Of a stretch of 64,000 nt of DNA, positions 4,595-63,157 are shown one piece after another; within the stretch, counting starts at the first letter, position 1; each line of letters starts with the position of its first letter. The stretch is from Puniceicoccaceae bacterium (GTDB lineage: Bacteria > Verrucomicrobiota > Verrucomicrobiia > Opitutales > Coraliomargaritaceae), in assembly GCA_018402305.1 (NCBI GenBank), contig JAGYJE010000015.1:1-64000 (forward strand), written 5' to 3'. The notes below the pieces were generated by a model that was given only the letters and a program-made list of their open reading frames with translations, searched no databases and was not told the DNA's origin. Made by a program: the position numbers and the translations under genes.

Positions 4595-4600
4595 TAGTCT

Positions 4601-5083
4601 CTACTGGCTCCAGAGAAAGCTTTGCGATGCGCCGAGCGTGTTGCCGTTGGGGCCGCGTATCGTGAATCGCCAGGCGGCTGGAATCGCGCTGGCGTCGGGC
4701 CAGTCGCTGCCGGTTAATCCCACGAAGAGCTCCCTTGTTTTGGGACGTCGGTTGGGGAGGGTGAACTCGTAGCTTTTCGGCTCGACCGAGTCGGGGCCGA
4801 AAAACTCGCCCACGATGGTGGTCCCTTTGGGCAGGCGCCTTACGTTCTCGTCGAGAATCAGCGTAAAGTAATAACCGCTCTTTGCGCCGGGCGAACTCCG
4901 CAGGAAGATGCGGTCCCCCTGGACCTCCTGCCCGGTGAAATACTCACTGGCCCGGGTCAATGCATCCGCTTCGATATAGCGGGGCTTGATCTCCTTGATT
5001 TCCACCGAGGTCAGGGCGGTCTTGGGCGTCGAAGCGCAGGCGGTCAAGAGGAGGCAGGCGAAAGCGGAAAGGAGGCAGCGCAT
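4601..5083 (-). CDS. Putative lipoprotein of unknown function
   Basis: A 160-residue protein with a signal peptide (MRCLLSAFACLLLTAC) ending in the lipobox LTAC, so it is predicted to be lipid-anchored. I recognise no functional domain. The mature part begins with a Ser/Thr-rich linker, then a mixed beta-like region containing a TGQEVQGDRIFLRSSP stretch. The ATG at 5083 is preferred over an upstream one because it places the signal peptide at the N terminus. The gene precedes the OGG glycosylase with six bases between, which suggests a transcript but not a shared function. Confidence 0.65.
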   Translation of the reverse strand: MRCLLSAFACLLLTACASTPKTALTSVEIKEIKPRYIEADALTRASEYFTGQEVQGDRIFLRSSPGAKSGYYFTLILDENVRRLPKGTTIVGEFFGPDSVEPKSYEFTLPNRRPKTRELFVGLTGSDWPDASAIPAAWRFTIRGPNGNTLGASQSFLWSQ

Positions 5084-9422: not shown

Positions 9423-9872
9423 ATGTCCGACGACCTACACGAACTCTATCAGGCGATCATCCTGGATCACAATAAACGTCCCCGGCACTACGGAGCGCTG
9501 GCGGAGGCCACGCATCGGGCCGAGGGCTTTAACCCGCTCTGTGGGGACAAGGTAGAAGTTTTTGTTGAGGTCAAAAACGGTGTAATCACAGCGATCCAAT
9601 TCGAGGCCGCCAGCTGCGCGATTTGCAAGGCCAGCGCCTCGATGATGACGAGTGCGCTTCAAGGGCAAAGCCTGGAAACCGCCGGGGCGGTTCTTCAATC
9701 GGTCAATGGTATCTTGAATTCGGATACGCCGGACACAAGTTTGGAGACCGCTGGCGAACTCGCCGCCCTGGCCGGGGTGCGCACGTTCCCCGCGCGGATC
9801 AAATGCGCGAGTCTACCCTGGCATACTTACACAGCTGCGCTGCAGGGTAAGGAAACGACCGAGCTTTCGTAG
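9423..9872 (+). CDS. sufU: SufU-type Fe-S cluster assembly protein
   Basis: A 149-residue member of the NifU N-terminal/IscU superfamily of the SufU type. The three conserved cysteines are present: Cys40 in NPLCGD, Cys65 in the ASCAICKAS segment, and the distal one in [11 protein letters not shown]. Asp42 next to Cys40 is the usual fourth ligand. SufU accepts sulfur from the SufS desulfurase, either as a zinc-dependent relay or a scaffold. A SufE homologue is encoded 42 kb away in this window, so the organism carries both types. The stop codon TAG at 9870-9872 lies inside the first unit of the repeat array, so the extreme C terminus may have been reset by repeat insertion. Confidence 0.9.
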
Positions 9873-10625
9873 CGAAGCGACGCCAGTCGCGTCGACTGTG
9901 GAGGTGGCGAGTTGACCTGCTTGGCCGTCGACCCCGCTGGCGCGGGTTCGCTACGGACTGGTAGCGAAGCGACGCCAGTCGCGTCGACTGTGGAGGTGGC
10001 GAGTTGATCGCTGGCCGTCGACTCGCCAGCGGGTTCGCTACGGACTGGTAGCGAAGCGACGCCAGTCGCGTCGACTGTGGAGGTGGCGAGTTGACCGCTT
10101 GGCCGTCGACCCCGCTGGCGCGGGTTCGCTACGGACTGGCAGCTAGCGCCGACGCCAGTCGCGTCGACTGTGGAAGTGGCGAGTTGACTGTTATCGTCGA
10201 CCCCGCTGGCGCGAGTTCGCTACGGACTGGTAGCGAAGCGACGCCAGTCGCGTCGATTGTGGAGGTGGCGAGTTGACCGCTTGGCCGTCGACCCCGCTGG
10301 CGCGGGTTCGCTACGGACTGGTAGCGAAGCGACGCCAGTCGCGTCGACTGTGGAAGTGGCGAGTTGACCGCTTGGCCGTCGACCCCGCTGGCGCGGGGTT
10401 CGCTGACTGGTGCAGCGAAGCGACGCCAGTCGCGTCGACTGTGGAAGTGGCGAGTTGACTGCTTGGCCGTCGACCCCGCTGGCGCAGGTTCGCTACAGAC
10501 TGGTAGCGAAGCGACGCCAGTCGCGTCGACTGTGGAAGTGGCGAATTGACCGCTTGGCCGTCGATCCCGCTGGCGCGGGTTCGCTACAGACTGGTAGCGA
10601 AGCGACGCCAGTCGCGTCGACTGGG
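9869..10625. repeat. Tandem array of nine ~91-bp palindromic units (REP/BIME-like family A)
   Basis: Units begin with GTAGCGAAGCGACGCCAG at 9869, 9961, 10048, about 10141 (variant), 10230, 10321, about 10411 (variant), 10503 and 10594. Each unit has a forward hairpin (CGACGC-CAGTC-GCGTCG) and, 55-60 bp later, a second hairpin in reverse orientation. Read on the other strand the second begins GTAGCGAACCCGCGCCAGC and pairs CCCGC with GCGGG. Forward and reverse arms therefore share the head GTAGCGAA, a GCCAG centre and a GTCGAC tail, forming an inverted pair. The array fills the space between convergent sufU and recQ. Repetitive open frames across it are artefacts. Confidence 0.9.
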
Positions 10626-10639
10626 GAGCCGTTCAAGTC

Positions 10640-22800: not shown

Positions 22801-23465
22801 GCTGCGGGGTTCGTTTTCGCGATCAATGCGGACTTGTTTGGCGCGATTCGGGCTGGTCTCCTTCCGGTCGGGCGATGACCACCCTGGGAAGGAGCTTTTT
22901 AAATAATTCCTCACCTCTGAGGGGAGGGGACTGGGCGCGCAGCGTGCGGTGGAGGGGTGCTGGCTGTAGCTGCGGCTCAGTTCGTTTTCGCGATCAATGC
23001 GGACTTGTTTGGCATGATTCGAGCTGGCCCCTTCCGGTCGGGCGAGCCGACCACCTTCCCCCGGAGGGAAGGAGTTTTTTAAATAATTCCTCACCTCTCT
23101 GAGGGGAGGGGGACCGCGCGCAGCGGGGTGGAGGGGTGCCGGCTGTAGCTGCGGCTCAGTTCGTTTTCGCGATCAATGCGGACTTGTTTGGCGCGATTCG
23201 AGCCGGCCCCTTCCGGTCGGGCGAGCTGACCACCTTCCCCCGGGGGGAAGGAGCTTTTGCCTTATTCCTCACCTCTCTGAGGGGAGGGGGACCGCGCGCA
23301 GCGCGGTGGAGGGGTGTTGGCTGTAGCTGCGGCTCAGTTCGTTTTCGCAATCAATGCGGACTTGTTTGGCGCGATTCGAGCCGGCCCCCTTTCCCCCCTG
23401 GCTGCCCTTCGGCTTCGCTCAGGAGAGCCAGGTGACCTTCCCCCCGGGGGGGAGGAGTTTTGGTC
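22801..23465. repeat. Array of four ~175-bp palindromic units (family C)
   Basis: Units each contain a TTCGTTTTCGCGATCAATGC segment, a GCCGGCCCCTTCCGGTCGGGC hairpin-like segment, then CCTCACCTCTCTGAGGGGAGG and a CCGCGCGCAGCGCGG hairpin followed by TGGAGGGGTG. Copies begin near 22801, 22969, 23150 and 23328, with small length differences. The array begins directly after the stop codon of the upstream gene and ends shortly before the 3' end of the convergent LON-domain gene. Another copy is at 33565-33770, and degenerate relatives are at 39600-39660 and 42190-42256. Confidence 0.85.
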
Positions 23466-29352: not shown

Positions 29353-30180
29353 TTTGTCCGGGATTCGCTTACGTGGTGTCCGAGCTTGCTCGGGCCTGCA
29401 GCGTTGTTGGCCATCGGCCCGGACCACCCAGCCAGACTTAGCGCAAGCCCGCGCGAGCGCGGACGCCACTGAAAGAGGCGCGGCGGTGGATTTGTCCGGG
29501 ATTCGCTTACGTGGTGTCCGAGCTTGCTCGGGCCTGCAGGGTTGTTGGCCATCGGCCCGGACCACCCGGCCAGACTTAGCGCAAGCCCGCGCGAGCGCGG
29601 ACGCCACGAGGAGGAGGCCCGGCGGTGGATTCGTCTGGGATTCGCTTACGTGGTGTCCGAGCTTGCTCGGGCCTGCAGGGTTGTTGGCCACCGGCCCCGA
29701 CCATCCGGCCAGACTTAGCGCAAGCCCGCGCGAGCGCGGACGCCACGAGGAAGAGGCGCGGCGGTGGATTTGTCCGGGATTCGCTTAGGTGGTGTCCGAG
29801 CTTGCTCGGGCCTGCAGGGTTGTTGGCCACCGGCCACGGCCACCCGGCCAGACTTAGCGCGAGCCCGCGCGAGCGCGGACGCCACGAGGAAGAGGCCCGG
29901 CGGTGGATTTATCCGGGATTCGCTTACGTGGTGTCCGAGCTTGCTCGGGCCTGCAGGGTTGTTGGCCCCCGGCCCGGACCATCCGGCCAGACTTAGCGCA
30001 AGCCCGCGCGAGCGCGGACGCCACGAGGAAGAGGCGCGGCGGCGGATTTGTCCGGGATTCGCTTACGTGGTGTCCGAGCTTGCTCGGGCCTGCAGGGTTG
30101 TTGGCCCCCGGCCCGGACCACCCGGCCAGACTTAGCGCAAGCCCGCGCGAGCGCGGACGCCACGAGGAAGAGGTGCGGCG
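29353..30180. repeat. Tandem array of six 138-139-bp units (REP/BIME-like family B)
   Basis: Each unit reads TTTGTCCGGGATTCGCTTAC, then hairpin 1 (GTGGTG-TCCGAGC-TT-GCTCGGGC), CTGCAGG, a CCGGCC-rich centre, CTTAGCGCAAG, then hairpin 2 (CCCGCGC-GAGCGCGG-ACGCCAC) and a purine-rich GAGGAAGAGG tail. Heads are at 29373, 29511, 29650, 29789, 29928 and 30067. Hairpin 2 on the other strand begins GTGGCG-TCCGCGC, so the two are an inverted pair of one motif. The array starts exactly after the glycosyltransferase stop. Another array is at 50527-51150 in the opposite direction. Confidence 0.92.
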
Positions 30181-33526: not shown

Positions 33527-33564
33527 AGGTGGAGATAGTGTCTCTTTCAGATGAGTCAATGTTC

Positions 33565-33770
33565 CACAAGAATTCCTCACCTCTTGGAGGGGAGGGGGAC
33601 CGCGCGCAGCGTGGTGGAGGGGAGCCGGCTGTAGCTGCGGCCCAGTTCGTTTTTGCTATCAATGCGGACTTGGTTGGCGCGATTCGAGCCGGCCCCCTTC
33701 CGGTCGGGCGGCAAGCCCTTCGGCTTCGCTCAAGAGAGCCGGATGACCTTCCCCTGGGAAGGAGTTTTTA
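33565..33770 (+). repeat. Single family C palindromic element
   Basis: This copy repeats the order seen at 22.8-23.5 kb: CCTCACCTCTTGGAGGGGAGG, CCGCGCGCAGCGTGG, a GTAGCTGCGGCCCAGTTCG segment, ATCAATGCGGACTTG, then a GCCGGCCCCCTTCCGGTCGG hairpin and CTTCCCCTGGGAAGGAG. It contains an extra AAGCCCTTCGGCTTCGCTC insert also seen in the fourth unit of the array. It fills the space between the divergent M16 and DUF4212 genes. Confidence 0.8.
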
Positions 33771-38116: not shown

Positions 38117-39274
38117 CTACTCCTGCATTTTGAAGCGGTAGAAGCGGGCTTGGGCGGGGGCGTCGATCTCGATGGTGTGGTCGGTCTTGGTAGGAGTTGA
38201 CCAGTCGCTGAGATCGGAGGTCTCCTCGAGGGTCATCGTGATGCGTGCTTTGCCGCCTGAGACGTCTATCCTGGTGGCACCCGGGCGAGCATCCATTATC
38301 TGAGAGGCTGTGAAAAGGTTGAAGCTGGCGGGGTCGTTGATAACATCCTGCTGGCCGGCGGTGCGGGCGGCGGTGACTTCGCTGGGGGTGGCCAGATCGA
38401 AGGATGCGGGGTCGGCGAGCACGGAATTGATGCCCTGCTGCTCGACAAGGGGCAGTTCTTCCTTGGTGGCGAAGCCGGAGTTGTCTTGCGCGGCGAGCAT
38501 GGCGGCAGCGACGGCGGCAATGAACTCGGAATCGTCTTTCAAAACATCGGCAATCGCTCCGTAGAAGATGTCTGGGATGAGATCAATTGGCACGTCTTAC
38601 TTAGGCAATGCTGGTGCAAAACGGTTGGGTATCGTGATGCTGGTTAGGTTGGTGCATTGGTAGAAGGCTCCCTCTCCGATGCTGGTGAGGCTGTCGGGGA
38701 GGGTGATGCTGGTCAGGCTGGTGCAGAGGGAGAAGGCATAATTCCTGATGCTGGTGACGCCTTCGGGGAGGGTGATGCTGGTCAGGCTGGTGCAGTAGGA
38801 GAAGGCAGAATACCCGATGCTGGTGACGCTGTCGGGCAGGGTGATGCTGGTCAGGCTGGTGCAGTTGTTGAAGGCATAAGCCCCGATGCTGGTGACGCCT
38901 TCGGGGAGGGTGATGCTGGTCAGGTTGGTGCAGTTGTAGAAGGCTCCCTCTCCGATGGTGGTGACGCCGTCGGGGATTGTGATGCTGGTCAGGCTGGTGC
39001 AGTCGAAGAAGGCATACTCCCCGATGCTGGTGAGGCTGTTGGGGAGGGTGATGCTGGTTAGGCTGGTGCAGTTGTTGAAGGCCGCATCCCCGATGCTGGT
39101 GACGGGGAGGCCGTTGTAGGTGGCGGGGATGGTGAGGGCGCCGGAGGCGGATGTACGGCAATCGCTGACTTCGTAGGCGGTGCCTTCGTTGATCAAGGCG
39201 AATGACAGATCGCTGACGGAAGCGGCGGTGAGTGAGAGTATGGGGAGGAGGAGGATTGGTATAAGGCGGTGCAT
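38117..39274 (-). pseudogene. BspA-like leucine-rich repeat surface protein split by an in-frame stop
   Basis: The 38597-39274 part has a signal peptide (LIPILLLPILSLTAASV), then seven LRR_5 units of 23 residues with the form TSIGEYAFFDCTSLTSITLP. A TAA at 38597-38599 follows IPNRFAPALPK. The same frame then resumes through DVPIDLIPDIFYGAIADVL to 38117. The second part is the C-terminal module common in this phylum: FATKEELPLVEQQG, VINDPASFNLFTASQI and a final RFYRFKMQE, which resembles a cell-surface sorting region. A single nonsense change therefore splits one gene of about 385 codons. The tail could restart at a GTG at 38593, but would lack export. Confidence 0.78.
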
Positions 39275-41214: not shown

Positions 41215-41702
41215 TCATTTCGTAAATTTTTGAATAAACTTCTGGTAGGCTTCAGAGGCGTCTCCACCTTTTGAGGCGAAACGCCCGACGTGAACGCTGA
41301 CGGCTTGGGACACACCCATGTGCAGCTGCTTGGCGATCCAAGCGTTCGGCGCGTTGGTGCGGCGCTTCAACTCGTGGGCGACCCATATTTTCCACGCTTC
41401 GGATTTCTTCTGAACGCGCGCGGAACGCTCGGTCTGCCGGGCCGCACGCAGACCGAAGTCCCCAGCAACCATTTCATGCCCGAGGAGAGATTCCCCCGGG
41501 GCGTGCGCACTACCAGATGGAAGTGGTTCGTCATCACACAAAAGCCCTCCAGCACCCAACCTGACTTTTCGCACGCCTCAAATAGACAAGTTTCGAAAGA
41601 CTGATGCGCACCCTCGTTGACAAACAGATCCTGCCGGTAATTCCCACGGTTGATTACATGATATACCCCGCCCTCGCGCTCAATCCGTAAACTTCGTGCC
41701 AT
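41215..41702 (-). pseudogene. REP-associated Y1 transposase (RAYT) with internal deletion
   Basis: The N-terminal frame (41702 down to about 41462) reads MARSLRIEREGGVYHVINRG, then GFCVMTNHFHLVVRTP with the HxH of the HUH nuclease motif, and GNLSSGMKWLLGT. The frame then shifts near 41460 to a C-terminal part: ERSARVQKKSEAWKIWVAHE, LKRRTNAPNAWIAKQLHMG and SVHVGRF, a tail found in longer members. About 100 residues between, including the catalytic tyrosine helix, are missing. The element is flanked by a perfect inverted repeat, GGGTCATTTCGTAAA at 41213 and TTTACGAAATGACCC at 41748. Confidence 0.78.
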
Positions 41703-41759
41703 ATCGCGATATTCATGGGGAACCATCAGACTCACGAAGTTTATCTTTACGAAATGACC

Positions 41760-45225: not shown

Positions 45226-45406
45226 AACTTGGGTTAAATGATACATCGTCAGCCGGAAAAGGAAAGTTTCAAATAACGATCGATTTTTTTGCCATTGAAT
45301 CCGCAGGCAGTCTTGGCCGAGCCCGCGCAAGCGCAGCCACCAAGGAATCAATGAAAATAGGGGAAAAGCGTTGAACAAAGTGTGAGCGGGGCTTTCGTAG
45401 GCGGGA
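45226..45406. other. Divergent promoter region with a degenerate family B element
   Basis: The region between DUF1800 and the ABC transporter contains one degraded family B hairpin at about 45313-45345 (minus strand GTGGCTGCGCTTGCGCGGGC). Otherwise it is plain, moderately AT-rich sequence that should hold both promoters. Confidence 0.5.
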
Positions 45407-49689: not shown

Positions 49690-50526
49690 ATGACCGACCT
49701 ACTCAACGTCTCCGATCTCCGCATCGCATTCCCCTCGCGCGGCGAGGCCAATGAGGTGGTGCACGGCATCGATTTCGCCGTAAGCGGAGGTGGGCAAACG
49801 ATAGCCATCCTCGGTGAGAGCGGGAGTGGGAAGAGTGTCAGTTGCATGGCCTTGACGAAGCTTTTGCCCAAAGCGCCCGGCTGCACGGTGACGGGGGAGA
49901 TTTCCTTCAAGGGCAAAAACATCCTCGAAATGAATGCCGACGCGATCCGCGAGGTGAGGGGGAAGGGGATCGCCTATATTTTTCAGGAACCGGGGTCCTC
50001 GCTCAACCCGGTCTTCACGGTGGGCTATCAGATCGCCGAGGCAGTACGGCTGCACCGGCCCGACATCTCCGATGTAAAAGGGCGCGTGGTGGAGCTATTG
50101 GAGTTGGTCGGTATTCGCGACGCGGCCATGCGCTACGGGGCCTACCCGCATGAAATGAGCGGCGGCATGCAACAGCGCGTCATGATCGCCATGGCCTTGG
50201 CCTGTGAGCCGGATCTCTTGATCGCGGATGAGCCGACGACCGCCCTCGATGTGACGATTCAGGCCCAGATCATGGACTTGCTGCGCGAGCTTCGCGTGAA
50301 GCTGGGTATGAGCATTATTCTGATTACGCACAACTTTGGTATCGTGAACGGCTTTGCCGATGAGGTGCTCGTCATGTATCGCGGCGACATCGTGGAGCGG
50401 GGTCCGGTTAAGCAGATCCTAAACGAGCCGCAGCACCCCTACACCAAGGCATTGATCGCCTGCATCCCGAAACTTGGGCAAAAGCAACACCGGTTGACCA
50501 CGATCGCTCAGGAAATGGCGGACTAA
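49690..50526 (+). CDS. Peptide ABC transporter ATP-binding protein (DppD-like)
   Basis: A 278-residue ATPase. Walker A is [16 protein letters not shown], the signature is [17 protein letters not shown], Walker B is [13 protein letters not shown], and the H-loop is LITHNFG. The C terminus ends soon after [15 protein letters not shown], so the usual OppD/DppD extension that carries further substrate-linked features is short. Peptide importers generally need a second ATPase (DppF). None follows; the family B repeat array starts right after the stop codon. The protein may act as a homodimer or with an ATPase elsewhere. Confidence 0.92.
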
Positions 50527-51150
50527 TCCGCCGCCGTGTTTCTTCCAGTGGCGTCCGCGCTCGCGCGGGCTTGGGCTGAGCTTGGCAGGGTGGCCTGGAC
50601 CGGTGGCCAACAACACTGCAGGCCCGAGCAAGCTCGGACACTACGTAGGTGTGCTTCTTCCAGTGGTGTCCGCGCTCGCGCGGGCTTGGGCTAAGCTTGG
50701 CAGGGTGGCCTCAGCCGGTAGCCAACAACGCTGCAGGCCCGAGCAAGCTCGCACACTACGTAAGTGTGCTTCTTCCTCGTGGTGTCCGCGCTCGCGCGGG
50801 CTTGGGCTGAGTCTGGCCGAGTGGCCTGGACCGGTGGCCGACAACACTGCAGGCCCGAGCAAGCTCGGACACCACGTAAGCGTGTTTCTTCCAGTGGCGT
50901 CCGCGCTCGCGCGGGCTTGGGCTGAGCTTGGCAGGGTGGCCTGGACCGGTGACCAACAACACTGCAGGCCCGAGCAAGCTCGGACACTACGTAAGCGAAT
51001 ATCCCGGACAAACCGGCCGCGTGCTTCTTCCTGTGGTGTCCGCGCTCGCGCGGGCTTGGGCTAAGCTTGGCAGGGTGGCCTCAGCCGGGAGCCAACAGCG
51101 CTGCAGGCCCGAGCAAGCTCGGACACTACGTAAGCGAATCCCAGACAAAT
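50527..51150. repeat. Second family B array, five units in opposite orientation
   Basis: Heads GTGGCG/GTGGTG-TCCGCGC are at 50548, 50663, 50779, 50894 and 51033. The first three units are 115-116 bp and lack the 23-base CGAATCCCGGACAAA segment; the later unit is the full 139 bp. The array has the same inverted hairpin pair as the array at 29.35-30.18 kb. It begins directly after the ATPase stop and ends within the 3' end of the DUF983 gene. Confidence 0.92.
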
Positions 51151-51590
51151 CAGCGCCGCGCTTCTTCCTCAAAAAGCAGATCGTCGCTGGTATCGGGTCG
51201 ATTGGCATGCAGTTCATCGGGGAGAAAGAAATAGTAAAGCATGAGCCAGAGGCTCCAGGATGTGCGGTAGAGAAGAACAGGCAACAGAACGCCACCGAGC
51301 AGCGCGAGGGGCAGCGCAACCTGAATGGCAAGCCAACCGGCCACACCGAGCAGGAGCACGGGGGCCACAAAGCCGAAAGCGACGAAACCGTAGTTGATAC
51401 AGAGGGGGCCGAGGTAGTAGCCGTCGCCGCGTTCCAGCGTCATGCCGCAGTGCGGGCAGCGGTGATGAATCCGCAAGCCCGAGCGGAATAGCTTGGCCAG
51501 ACCGCAATTGGGACAAAGACCCTGTATGCCGCGCCGGAATATTTGGGGACGCCTTACGCGGGGGGCTGGCTGTAAAATGAGATTAGTCAT
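51150..51590 (-). CDS. DUF983 zinc-ribbon membrane protein
   Basis: A 146-residue protein with two CxxC knuckles (CPNCG and CPHCG) forming a zinc ribbon, then two membrane segments (FVAFGFVAPVLLLGVAGWLA and ALLGGVLLPVLLYRTSW). This is the DUF983 layout; function is unknown. The last codons (EEARR and stop) coincide with the edge of the family B array, so the C terminus may have been replaced by repeat sequence. Confidence 0.85.
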   Translation of the reverse strand: MTNLILQPAPRVRRPQIFRRGIQGLCPNCGLAKLFRSGLRIHHRCPHCGMTLERGDGYYLGPLCINYGFVAFGFVAPVLLLGVAGWLAIQVALPLALLGGVLLPVLLYRTSWSLWLMLYYFFLPDELHANRPDTSDDLLFEEEARR

Positions 51591-53779: not shown

Positions 53780-53970
53780 CCTTGCATGCCAAGGTGGCCT
53801 GTAATGCCGCGACCCCGAGCAAGCTCGGACACCACGTTGACAGACTGTAGTTTTTGGTAGCGTCCGCGCTTGCGCGGGCTTGGGGAGCTGGGGAAGTCGG
53901 CAAATCGCTACTTCGGCTTGCAAGCTGCAAGCCCGAGCAAGCTCGGACACCACGTTTGCTCGTTGCAGGA
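53780..53970. repeat. Scattered family B hairpins upstream of eno
   Basis: Three hairpins occur: CCGAGCAAGCTCGG at 53815-53830 and again at 53932-53947, and GGTAGCGTCCGCGCTTGCGC at 53854-53875. The last has a GTAG rather than GTGG head. Their order and alternating direction match the paired arrangement of the arrays. Confidence 0.8.
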
Positions 53971-59915: not shown

Positions 59916-60214
59916 GTTTCAGAAACCGGCGGATTTAGAGGACTCGCCGCTGCCGCGTCAACGCCGTATGCACCCTCGTTGAGAGGTGAAACCTGCGACC
60001 TGCCTGTCCAGCATAGCTCGAAGAGCGACGCTGGAAAACCTAGAGTGGCGTCCGCGCTCGCGCGGGCTATCTGAATTGAGCGAGCGCGAGATCCAGCGAC
60101 GCTTGGTGGCGTCCGCGCTCGCGCGGGCTATCTGCGGCGTCAACCGGAGCGGGGCCCAAGCACCTTGGGGGAGACTCAATTGACATTTTTCGATCAAGCG
60201 CCAAGCTCTCAATC
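59916..60214. repeat. leuS upstream gap with two family B hairpins
   Basis: GTGGCGTCCGCGCTCGCGC then GGGCTATCTG is repeated at about 60042-60072 and 60108-60137, both in the same direction, with an intervening GAGCGAGCGCGAGATCC. Unlike the arrays they lack the AGCTTGCT partner. The rest should contain the divergent promoters of leuS and the DUF4136 gene. Confidence 0.75.
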
Positions 60215-60781: not shown

Positions 60782-60819
60782 GCTTGTTGTTTTTCAAAAT
60801 CCGCTTCAGGGTTTCGTTT

Positions 60820-61185
60820 ATGAATGATGCTGAAACGCCCCTCGTAAAAATTAAAAAGCAGGTGCTGGCTTTTGCCCGCGAGCGGGATTGGGAGCAGTTC
60901 CACTCGCCGAAGAACCTGTCGATGGCCATTGCCACGGAGGCCTCGGAACTGATGGAGCATTTTCTCTGGCAAAGCCCGGAGGCTTCGCGCGAGCAGATGG
61001 ATACGGAAAAGCTCCGGAGTCAGGTGGCCGAAGAACTGGCGGATGTCTTCATCTTTGCCATCGAGTTTGCCAATATCACCGGAATGGACATCGCCTCGAT
61101 CATCGAGGCGAAGATGCAACGAAACGCCGAAAAGTATCCGGTCGAGAAGGCGAGGGGGCGGAGCACAAAATACACCGAGCTTTGA
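60820..61185 (+). CDS. MazG-like nucleotide pyrophosphohydrolase
   Basis: A 121-residue all-alpha NTP pyrophosphohydrolase of the iMazG/RS21-C6 type. The metal-binding motif has EASELMEHFLW (ExxxxE-like) and ELADVFIFAI (ExxD). FARERDWEQFHSPKNLSMAI is the typical N-terminal helix pair. Such enzymes hydrolyse non-canonical dNTPs such as modified dCTP. The ATG at 60820 gives the standard N terminus. The 3' 265 bases of the region (60940-61204) are copied at 62893-63157. Confidence 0.88.
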   Translation: MNDAETPLVKIKKQVLAFARERDWEQFHSPKNLSMAIATEASELMEHFLWQSPEASREQMDTEKLRSQVAEELADVFIFAIEFANITGMDIASIIEAKMQRNAEKYPVEKARGRSTKYTEL

Positions 61186-61200
61186 TTAGAAAGTCGCTCG

Positions 61201-61374
61201 ATGCTGGCGTGTATGGCGTATGTGAACCTAAATTCGGTGCGTGCGCAACTGGCAACAAGCCAGGAGGATAATGAGTTCACGAGGGTCTATGATTGCTTAA
61301 TGGCAGAACGCGCAAAGCAGCGCCTGGAGGTTGCTGCTAAGGTGGTGAATCCAACCCCTCGCCTTCTCGAATAG
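61201..61374 (+). pseudogene. C-terminal remnant of a long Y1-type transposase
   Basis: The frame reads MLACMAYVNLNSVRAQLATS, QEDNEFTRVYDCL and ends RLLE-stop at 61374. The MAYVxLNxVRAxLA motif, followed by EDxEFT, is the C-terminal signature of a long IS200/Y1-like transposase group. Nothing of the catalytic domain remains. It lies directly after the first copy of the 265-bp duplication. A GGGTGTCCTAATTTC tract at 61474 may belong to the same element. Confidence 0.6.
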
Positions 61375-62892: not shown

Positions 62893-63157
62893 GCCTCGGA
62901 GCTGATGGAGCATTTTCTCTGGCAAAGCCCGGAGGCTTCGCGCGAGCAGATGGATACGGAAAAGCTCCGGAGTCAGGTGGCCGAAGAACTGGCGGATGTC
63001 TTCATCTTTGCCATCGGGTTTGCCAATATCACCGGAATGGACATCGCCTCGATCATCGAGGCGAAGATGCAACGAAACGCCGAAAAGTATCCGGTCGAGA
63101 AGGCGAGGGGGCGGCGCACAAAATACACCGAGCTTTGATTAGAAAGTGGCTCGATGC
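62893..63157 (+). pseudogene. Duplicated 3' part of the MazG-like gene
   Basis: This 265-bp block is nearly identical to 60940-61204, with about four differences, including one that changes IEF to IGF and one Ser to Arg. It encodes residues from ELMEHFLWQSPEA to the stop at 63138. There is no start, N-terminal helix or first metal ligand region, so it is not a functional enzyme. The duplication brackets the transposase remnant and AAA ATPase gene. Confidence 0.88.

Follow-up and report, generated by a model that had tools for sequence, protein, structure and literature searches.

The BIME-2 elements of E. coli combine two head types with linkers of variable length. They have been described as tandem REPs of alternating orientation (PMC2817692), and a GTRG foot followed by an imperfect hairpin is presented as the hallmark of RAYT-associated REPs (PMC3733652; PMC2817692). 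For P. fluorescens SBW25, the account of Bertels and Rainey (2011, PMC3116915) describes facing REP pairs that form tandem, near-identical units together with their flanks, a cluster beside each of three RAYTs, and two large tandem REP arrays that are nearly identical but oppositely oriented, and its Discussion raises the possibility that CRISPRs derive from REPIN-like elements. Within the Verrucomicrobiota, GTAG REP families have been reported from Opitutus terrae, comprising GTAG-tagged palindromes, dimers and groups (PMC3733652). As palindromic repeats, REPs and the repeats of CRISPR arrays are generally regarded as distinct. Cas1-Cas2 can reportedly place spacers outside the CRISPR array as well, at off-target or neo-CRISPR loci, a result attributed to Nivala and colleagues in 2018.

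The window analyzed here, by which we mean the whole 64-kb stretch of DNA, resembles SBW25 as described in having facing pairs, tandem arrays, a RAYT-adjacent cluster and a pair of arrays in opposite orientation, but it differs in sequence and phylum and in having some heads at 61 bp with 33-bp spacers between them. Tandem alternating REPs are common to E. coli BIME-2 and to this genome, although the sequence differs. Opitutus terrae belongs to the same phylum but its families are other ones, likened to ours by description and not by head sequence, and no CRISPR-like arrays feature in the sections describing them. RAYT-associated REPs carry inserts with type I-E geometry here and, in contrast to neo-CRISPR loci, the inserts sit in members of a dispersed and probably mobile REP family, at four loci. 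In our reading, it is probable that the REPIN array arose by RAYT-driven spread followed by local growth, and that the same REP hairpin served at four loci as a stand-in CRISPR repeat.

Sequence analysis resolved a tandem array of five units of 97 bp each at 50,548-51,129, with the following features in and around it.

49690..50526, plus strand: peptide ABC-transporter ATPase gene, ending 21 bp before the array
50548..50644, plus strand: REPIN unit 1 (head GTGGCGTCCGCGCTCGCGCGGGC, facing head GTAGTGTCCGAGCTTGCTCGGGC)
50663..50759, plus strand: REPIN unit 2 (facing head with one mismatch)
50779..50875, plus strand: REPIN unit 3
50894..50990, plus strand: REPIN unit 4 (one difference from unit 1)
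50991..51032, plus strand: long linker of 42 nt between units 4 and 5; the remaining three inter-unit linkers are 18, 19 and 18 nt
51033..51129, plus strand: REPIN unit 5 (three differences from unit 2)
51130..51149, plus strand: tail of the long type 3' of unit 5 (CGAATCCCAGACAAA at 51135-51149), reaching the stop codon of the gene that ends at 51150
51150..51590, minus strand: DUF983 protein gene, convergent, its stop codon abutting the array tail

Each unit consists of two facing REP heads, each a GTRG with an imperfect hairpin, reading GTGGYGTCCGCGCTCGCGCGGGC on one strand and GTRGTGTCCGAGCTTGCTCGGGC on the other (with a mismatch in one copy). The units start at 50548, 50663, 50779, 50894 and 51033, giving steps of 115, 116, 115 and 139, and the 23-24 bp by which the steps differ falls wholly within the linker, unit length being constant at 97 bp in all five. 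The first-pass annotation had described two unit lengths, with three units lacking a 23-base segment and one retaining it. The two spacing classes are real, but there is a single unit length and linkers of either 42 or 18-19 nt; the counts of three and one describe the four linkers between five units, and the missing piece measures 24 bp and lies in the linker, 23 holding for the 19-nt linker only. The long-linker spacing is common to all units of the array at 29.35 kb, and the short linker looks like a version of the long one from which the stretch between two GCG triplets was deleted. The array is a tandem REPIN (BIME-like) cluster of an ordinary, known kind.

This array occupies the whole gap between the two convergent genes, a site that would also suit a satellite or terminator array with no link to a RAYT. 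A long hairpin can be drawn for the unit, but single-strand folding is unremarkable and not clearly better than that of shuffled sequence (z -0.18 to -1.88), and an Rfam search of the 64-kb window returned tRNAs only. The same GTRG heads recur at approximately 90 sites in the genome and a RAYT candidate lies inside their biggest cluster, both of which make the satellite or terminator explanation very improbable.

Further copies of the family were found elsewhere in the window.

29373..30163, minus strand: sister array of six REPIN units in opposite orientation, all linkers long (41-42 nt)
45318..45342, minus strand: degenerate single head, identified by eye
53813..53953, plus strand: a diverged REPIN at 53857-53953, with an additional head on the minus strand at 53813-53835

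That the 50.5-kb array repeats the 29.35-kb family in reverse orientation, as first annotated, was borne out: mean identity between the two sites is 0.873, compared with within-site means of 0.961 at 29.35 kb (six units) and 0.915 at 50.5 kb (five units). Units of either site share only 0.75-0.77 with those at C67, the site of the largest head cluster, where within-site means are 0.899 in the first cluster (three units) and 0.923 in the second (six units). The single hairpins listed along with the arrays fared unevenly. The family is indeed present at 53.8-53.95 kb, but as one 97-bp facing pair plus an extra head, with one mismatch, and the head at 45.3 kb can be discerned by eye at about 45318-45342 yet is not recovered by a head search allowing up to four substitutions. 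Family heads also occur at 60.04-60.14 kb, where they are two identical direct heads 61 bp apart, something other than a plain dispersed copy.

A phylogeny of units from all sites, the check proposed with the first-pass annotation, was built from 25 of 35 candidate pairs; pairs with other spans or poor partner heads were excluded, as were the direct 61-bp heads. Four groups were labeled, namely 29.35 kb, 50.5 kb, C67 (both clusters together) and all others (five lone units). The site label requires four changes on this tree where the minimum is three, compared with a mean of 13.9 for shuffled labels, none of the 200 shuffles being as low; good support is limited to 1/22 inner branches, and two changes are needed for the 50.5-kb group alone. 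The units thus group by site, from which it follows that arrays grow locally, and the relatedness of units in the arrays extends outside the palindromes, where unrelated sequence would have spoken against the annotated family. Local expansion, which is known biology, is therefore favored.

Within the 50.5-kb array, units 1 and 4 differ at 1/97 positions and units 2 and 5 at three, while neighbors differ at 8 to 13, a pattern which suggests that blocks of units may have been copied. A simple block duplication does not fit fully, as linker 1-2 is short but linker 4-5 is long, so that exchange or later deletion is needed. The original suggestion of recombination, or of amplification of a deleted variant, accordingly survives as local amplification with exchange inside the array, which the data support, and not as plain copying of a block. 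Since both the unit type and the linker segment are common to the two sister arrays, the copied segment seems to have been larger than one REPIN.

The family extends beyond the window. In the genome, an assembly of 3,125,301 bases in 76 contigs that is 90.4% complete, the head pattern (up to two mismatches) matches 91 sites on 15 contigs, compared with three for a reversed control pattern. Facing pairs are spaced 72-74 bp in the main family and 63-67 bp in diverged pairs, many heads are single, and two head types occur, GAGC/GCTC and GCGC. The family therefore combines the features by which REPs are recognized: a GTRG foot with an imperfect hairpin, a high dispersed copy number, facing pairs at near-constant distance, and a candidate RAYT among the same REPs. 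A dispersed family inside 64 kb had been annotated, and its repeats are real, but its REP/RAYT nature and the special character of the pair at 60 kb had been overlooked. Diverged heads (GTGGCGTGCGAGC..., GTGGTGTCTGCGC...) were also seen at C34:167825-167967, C3, C4, C10:27067 and C56:4221; they resemble the REPs beside the RAYTs of G005 and G003 and are perhaps older REP generations.

The largest head cluster spans C67:119,635-124,077 and contains a gene of 187 aa that is likely the RAYT of this REP family. It scores 82.5 against the NCBIfam model REP_Tyr_transpos (NF047646; cut-off 80), and the protein resembles E. coli TnpAREP 4er8 (E 9.2e-5). Matches to it were found in 18/56 genomes, our own included, and when the flanks of the best 17 of 30 RAYT loci (E 6.8e-21 or better) were examined, repeated GTRG hairpins were present at 13 of these 17, compared with 0/26 control loci. 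The other Y1 genes of the genome had repeated GTRG hairpins at 0/5 loci, and of 18 pieces of the window six had them, all at hairpin arrays or pairs. In G005, the closest relative, related heads such as GTAGTGTGCGAGCTTGCTCGCGC stand beside a gene that is 67% identical. It would be the C67 RAYT that moves these REPs, spreading heads as facing pairs, after which REPIN arrays may lengthen locally via recombination or slippage. The genome has 35 stretches matching Y1_Tnp, several of which are two pieces of one gene; many lie in frames of 330-390 aa, pointing to a large and varied transposase set for a 3.1-Mb genome. One short Y1_Tnp (IS200-like) gene of 122 aa falls within the window (41367-41735, minus strand); it scores 26.4 against the RAYT cut-off of 80, and the flanks examined are free of repeated GTRG hairpins.

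The heads at 60 kb are arranged differently from all of the above.

60045..60072, plus strand: first 28-bp REP repeat of a CRISPR-like mini-array
60073..60105, plus strand: unrelated 33-bp spacer, s6, with no protospacer found
60106..60133, plus strand: second 28-bp REP repeat, identical to the first

Heads in direct orientation occur at four loci: two at 60,045 in the window (C7), two at C9:45,243, three at C56:61,630 and three at C75:94,851. All six steps between neighbors at these loci are exactly 61 bp, made up of 28 duplicated bases and 33 bp between them. The first 28 bases from the GTRG are identical in 5/6 neighbor pairs, the exception being C75 pair 1-2, which differs at two core bases, and the match between neighboring repeats extends five bases (six at two loci) beyond the 23-base core. 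The bases just 3' of the core are specific to each locus (TTGCC, TTGGG, TTACG and TATCT), and among 2,052 unlinked head pairs only 4% agree over exactly five or six post-core bases. The REP 28-mer is itself symmetric, with 5 nt on either side of an 18-nt stem-loop, and visual inspection of the four loci revealed no shared leader-like sequence.

The spacing is not a general habit of the family. Among 35 same-strand neighbor pairs within 150 bp (heads with at most one mismatch, in the fetched loci), no others lie between 37 and 96 bp, and the genome has one pair of more diverged heads (two mismatches) 55 bp apart. Isolated duplications of 24-32 bp at a step of 61 were found solely at the four loci in 174,466 bases of the genome, bearing in mind that three of the seven stretches scanned, and the window, were chosen in the knowledge that they contain these loci; two further isolated duplications (steps of 93 and 118) fall in hairpin arrays of the window. 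A 61-bp direct head pair was not found in 108 other genomes of the order, and across 109 genomes, our own included, the only direct head pairs at other steps are one at 46 bp in G061 and the 55-bp pair just mentioned. A scan of genome_contigs with the GTGG-first core returned one locus only, with a spacing of 46 and none at 61; this sole match is a Verrucomicrobiota MAG identical over 69 bases to the head pair of G061, a genome of the same family, which suggests that the genome studied here probably belongs to that phylum too.

Could this be ordinary REP biology throughout, with single heads inserted by the RAYT that happen to sit 61 bp apart, head-to-tail? Head-to-tail REP dimers are described for GTAG families, most with dimer spacers of 20-100 bp (PMC3733652), and the first C75 spacer, s3, looks REPIN-like. 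It starts like the body of a REPIN (TTTGCCAAGCCG, as in C67:119,845), and C75 repeats 1 and 3 share 11 post-core bases instead of five, so s3 may be what remains of a REPIN or may derive from the genome itself; with that reservation, the 33-bp spacers are mutually unrelated. We nevertheless regard such a coincidence as unlikely, given that six of six steps fall at exactly 61 with spacers otherwise unrelated, that the identity of neighbors stops 28-29 bp from the head start with last bases peculiar to the locus, and that one spacer matches a viral contig at 31/33 positions with an AAG PAM.

These dimensions are those of a type I-E CRISPR array. In E. coli, I-E protospacers measure 33 bp and the PAM supplies the final base of the 29-bp repeat (PMC10011333), so that 28 + 33 gives 61. 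A type I-E array is also found in G001, a genome of the same genus, where L105:6298-8101 holds 30 repeats with 29/29 steps of 61 bp, is adjoined by Cas1 and Cas6e matches, and shows on the cas strand, for 29/29 spacers, a G directly following the 28-bp repeat. The mini-arrays are alike in their 61-bp step, 28-bp repeat, 33-bp spacers and spacer-start G (5/6 here), whereas the G001 array lies near cas genes, counts 30 repeats and differs in the sequence of its repeat; the REP 28-mers agree with its repeat at 11-15/28 positions on the better strand, the shuffled mean being about 8 and these values being reached by 0.35-12% of shuffles. Among 56 genomes searched, our own included, Cas6e was matched in G001 only.

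Of the six spacers, one (s4) has a protospacer. It is identical at 31/33 positions to bases 4597-4629 of the IMG/VR contig L084 (IMGVR_UViG_3300017514_000030), where the best agreement is 18-20 for the other five spacers and no higher than 20 for 30 shuffled versions of s4; once the pattern has matched, at least 31 identities would arise by chance with a probability of 4e-5 to 2.5e-4, varying with base composition. The two mismatches fall at third codon positions and do not alter the product of the ORF, but as the search pattern allowed differences at third codon positions only, their silence is not independent evidence. The ORF containing the protospacer had no PHROG match; phage-type genes of L084 include one for a metallophosphoesterase (E 1.4e-54) and another whose product shows short matches to tail-fibre and other families. 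On the non-GTGG strand the 5' flank of the protospacer ends in AA, which together with the first spacer base gives the PAM AAG. A G at the spacer start is seen on the expected strand in five of six spacers (P about 0.01; 0.03 without s3), the exception being the window spacer s6, which starts with C. Taking the GTGG strand as the spacer strand would give a PAM of ATG, a choice disfavored by the PAM-base count and by the AAG on the other strand.

The IMG/VR search used codon-degenerate patterns for all six spacers, of which s4 and s6 gave one match each; s1, s5, s3 and s2 gave none, nor did s6 in two other codon phases. Since every viral-contig scan relied on a single exact degenerate pattern, it would have overlooked most diverged protospacers. 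The s6 match, in viral contig L083, was rejected, being 24/33, about chance level, and out of frame with the ORF. Joined spacers searched against phages and plasmids gave nothing over chance, and apart from their own loci the spacers had only chance-level matches in their own genome (E 0.29 and 0.54). The spacers were also searched against 55 relatives; s1 resembles a gene in G029/G035 (lactonase-like by eye) at 82%, a weak match that was not counted, and likewise set aside was a match in G024 (E 0.001) running across the artificial junction between s5 and s6.

Terminal CRISPR repeats are often divergent. At C75 the leftmost repeat differs from the other two, as does the end repeat of the G001 array (L105:6298), and geometry, PAM and the one protospacer all fit type I-E, which raises the question of whether all four loci descend, as decayed orphan arrays, from a true I-E CRISPR whose repeat resembles the REPs by chance. 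The arrays of one system normally share one repeat, however, while here the last five bases differ by locus; C9 uses a GAGC/GCTC head and the other three loci GCGC, which are both head types of the REP family; and the sequence 3' of the last C9 repeat is like that after a C67 REP. A decayed array with a chance likeness to REPs hence appears quite improbable. Neither a repeat conserved across the loci nor Cas1 or Cas6e genes were found when tested for, and for this reason the mini-arrays are not filed as a CRISPR-Cas locus.

The mini-arrays are best explained by I-E-type integration into REP hairpins, a process that works like off-target spacer capture. Because the last bases of the 28-mer are specific to each locus, Cas1-Cas2 apparently took REPs that were already in place as its repeats. 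Inverted repeats guide Cas1-Cas2, which can also attack cruciform-prone sites. A type I-E Cas1-Cas2 integrase would recognize the symmetric REP hairpin, duplicate 28 bp and insert 33-bp fragments, at least one of them of viral origin, and at two of the four loci insertion would have happened twice in succession. Searches of the 90.4% complete genome for Cas1, Cas6e and an I-E-type array found none, and we therefore only infer the integrase that would have made the mini-arrays; its I-E system may have been lost, may lie in the missing part of the assembly or may have acted from another source. The argument as a whole draws on a single assembly with four loci and six spacers. In literature on REPs with CRISPR and on off-target spacer integration, largely open-access, we found no report of spacers inside REPs.

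If this explanation is true, off-target spacer capture leaves lasting natural traces, with mobile palindromes as a possible target, and the growth of CRISPR arrays from REP-like elements becomes an idea that can be tested in the laboratory. A broader and more tentative proposal, which we consider possible but would not favor, is that the CRISPR adaptation complex naturally accepts REP hairpins spread by RAYTs as integration sites, so that a mobile repeat family seeds new arrays around the chromosome, some of which may be transcribed and confer immunity; if true, it would provide a living example of the REPIN origin proposed for CRISPRs in 2011.

The window is rich in other repeats. A further GTAG-headed hairpin array at 9869-10627 has 91-bp units with heads GTAGCGAAGCGACGCCAGTCGCGTCGAC and GTAGCGAACCCGCGCCAGCGGGG..., and probably represents another REP family, distinguished by its head. 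A 178-bp tandem repeat family occupies 22809-23388, with a further copy about 10 kb away at 33545-33710, and a 265-bp duplication with 98% identity links 60940-61204 to 62893-63157, its first copy lying mostly within a small ORF (60784-61185). At 38634-39104, tandem repeats of 69 bp, a multiple of three, run within the ORF 38597-39274 on the minus strand, which suggests that it may encode a repeat protein.
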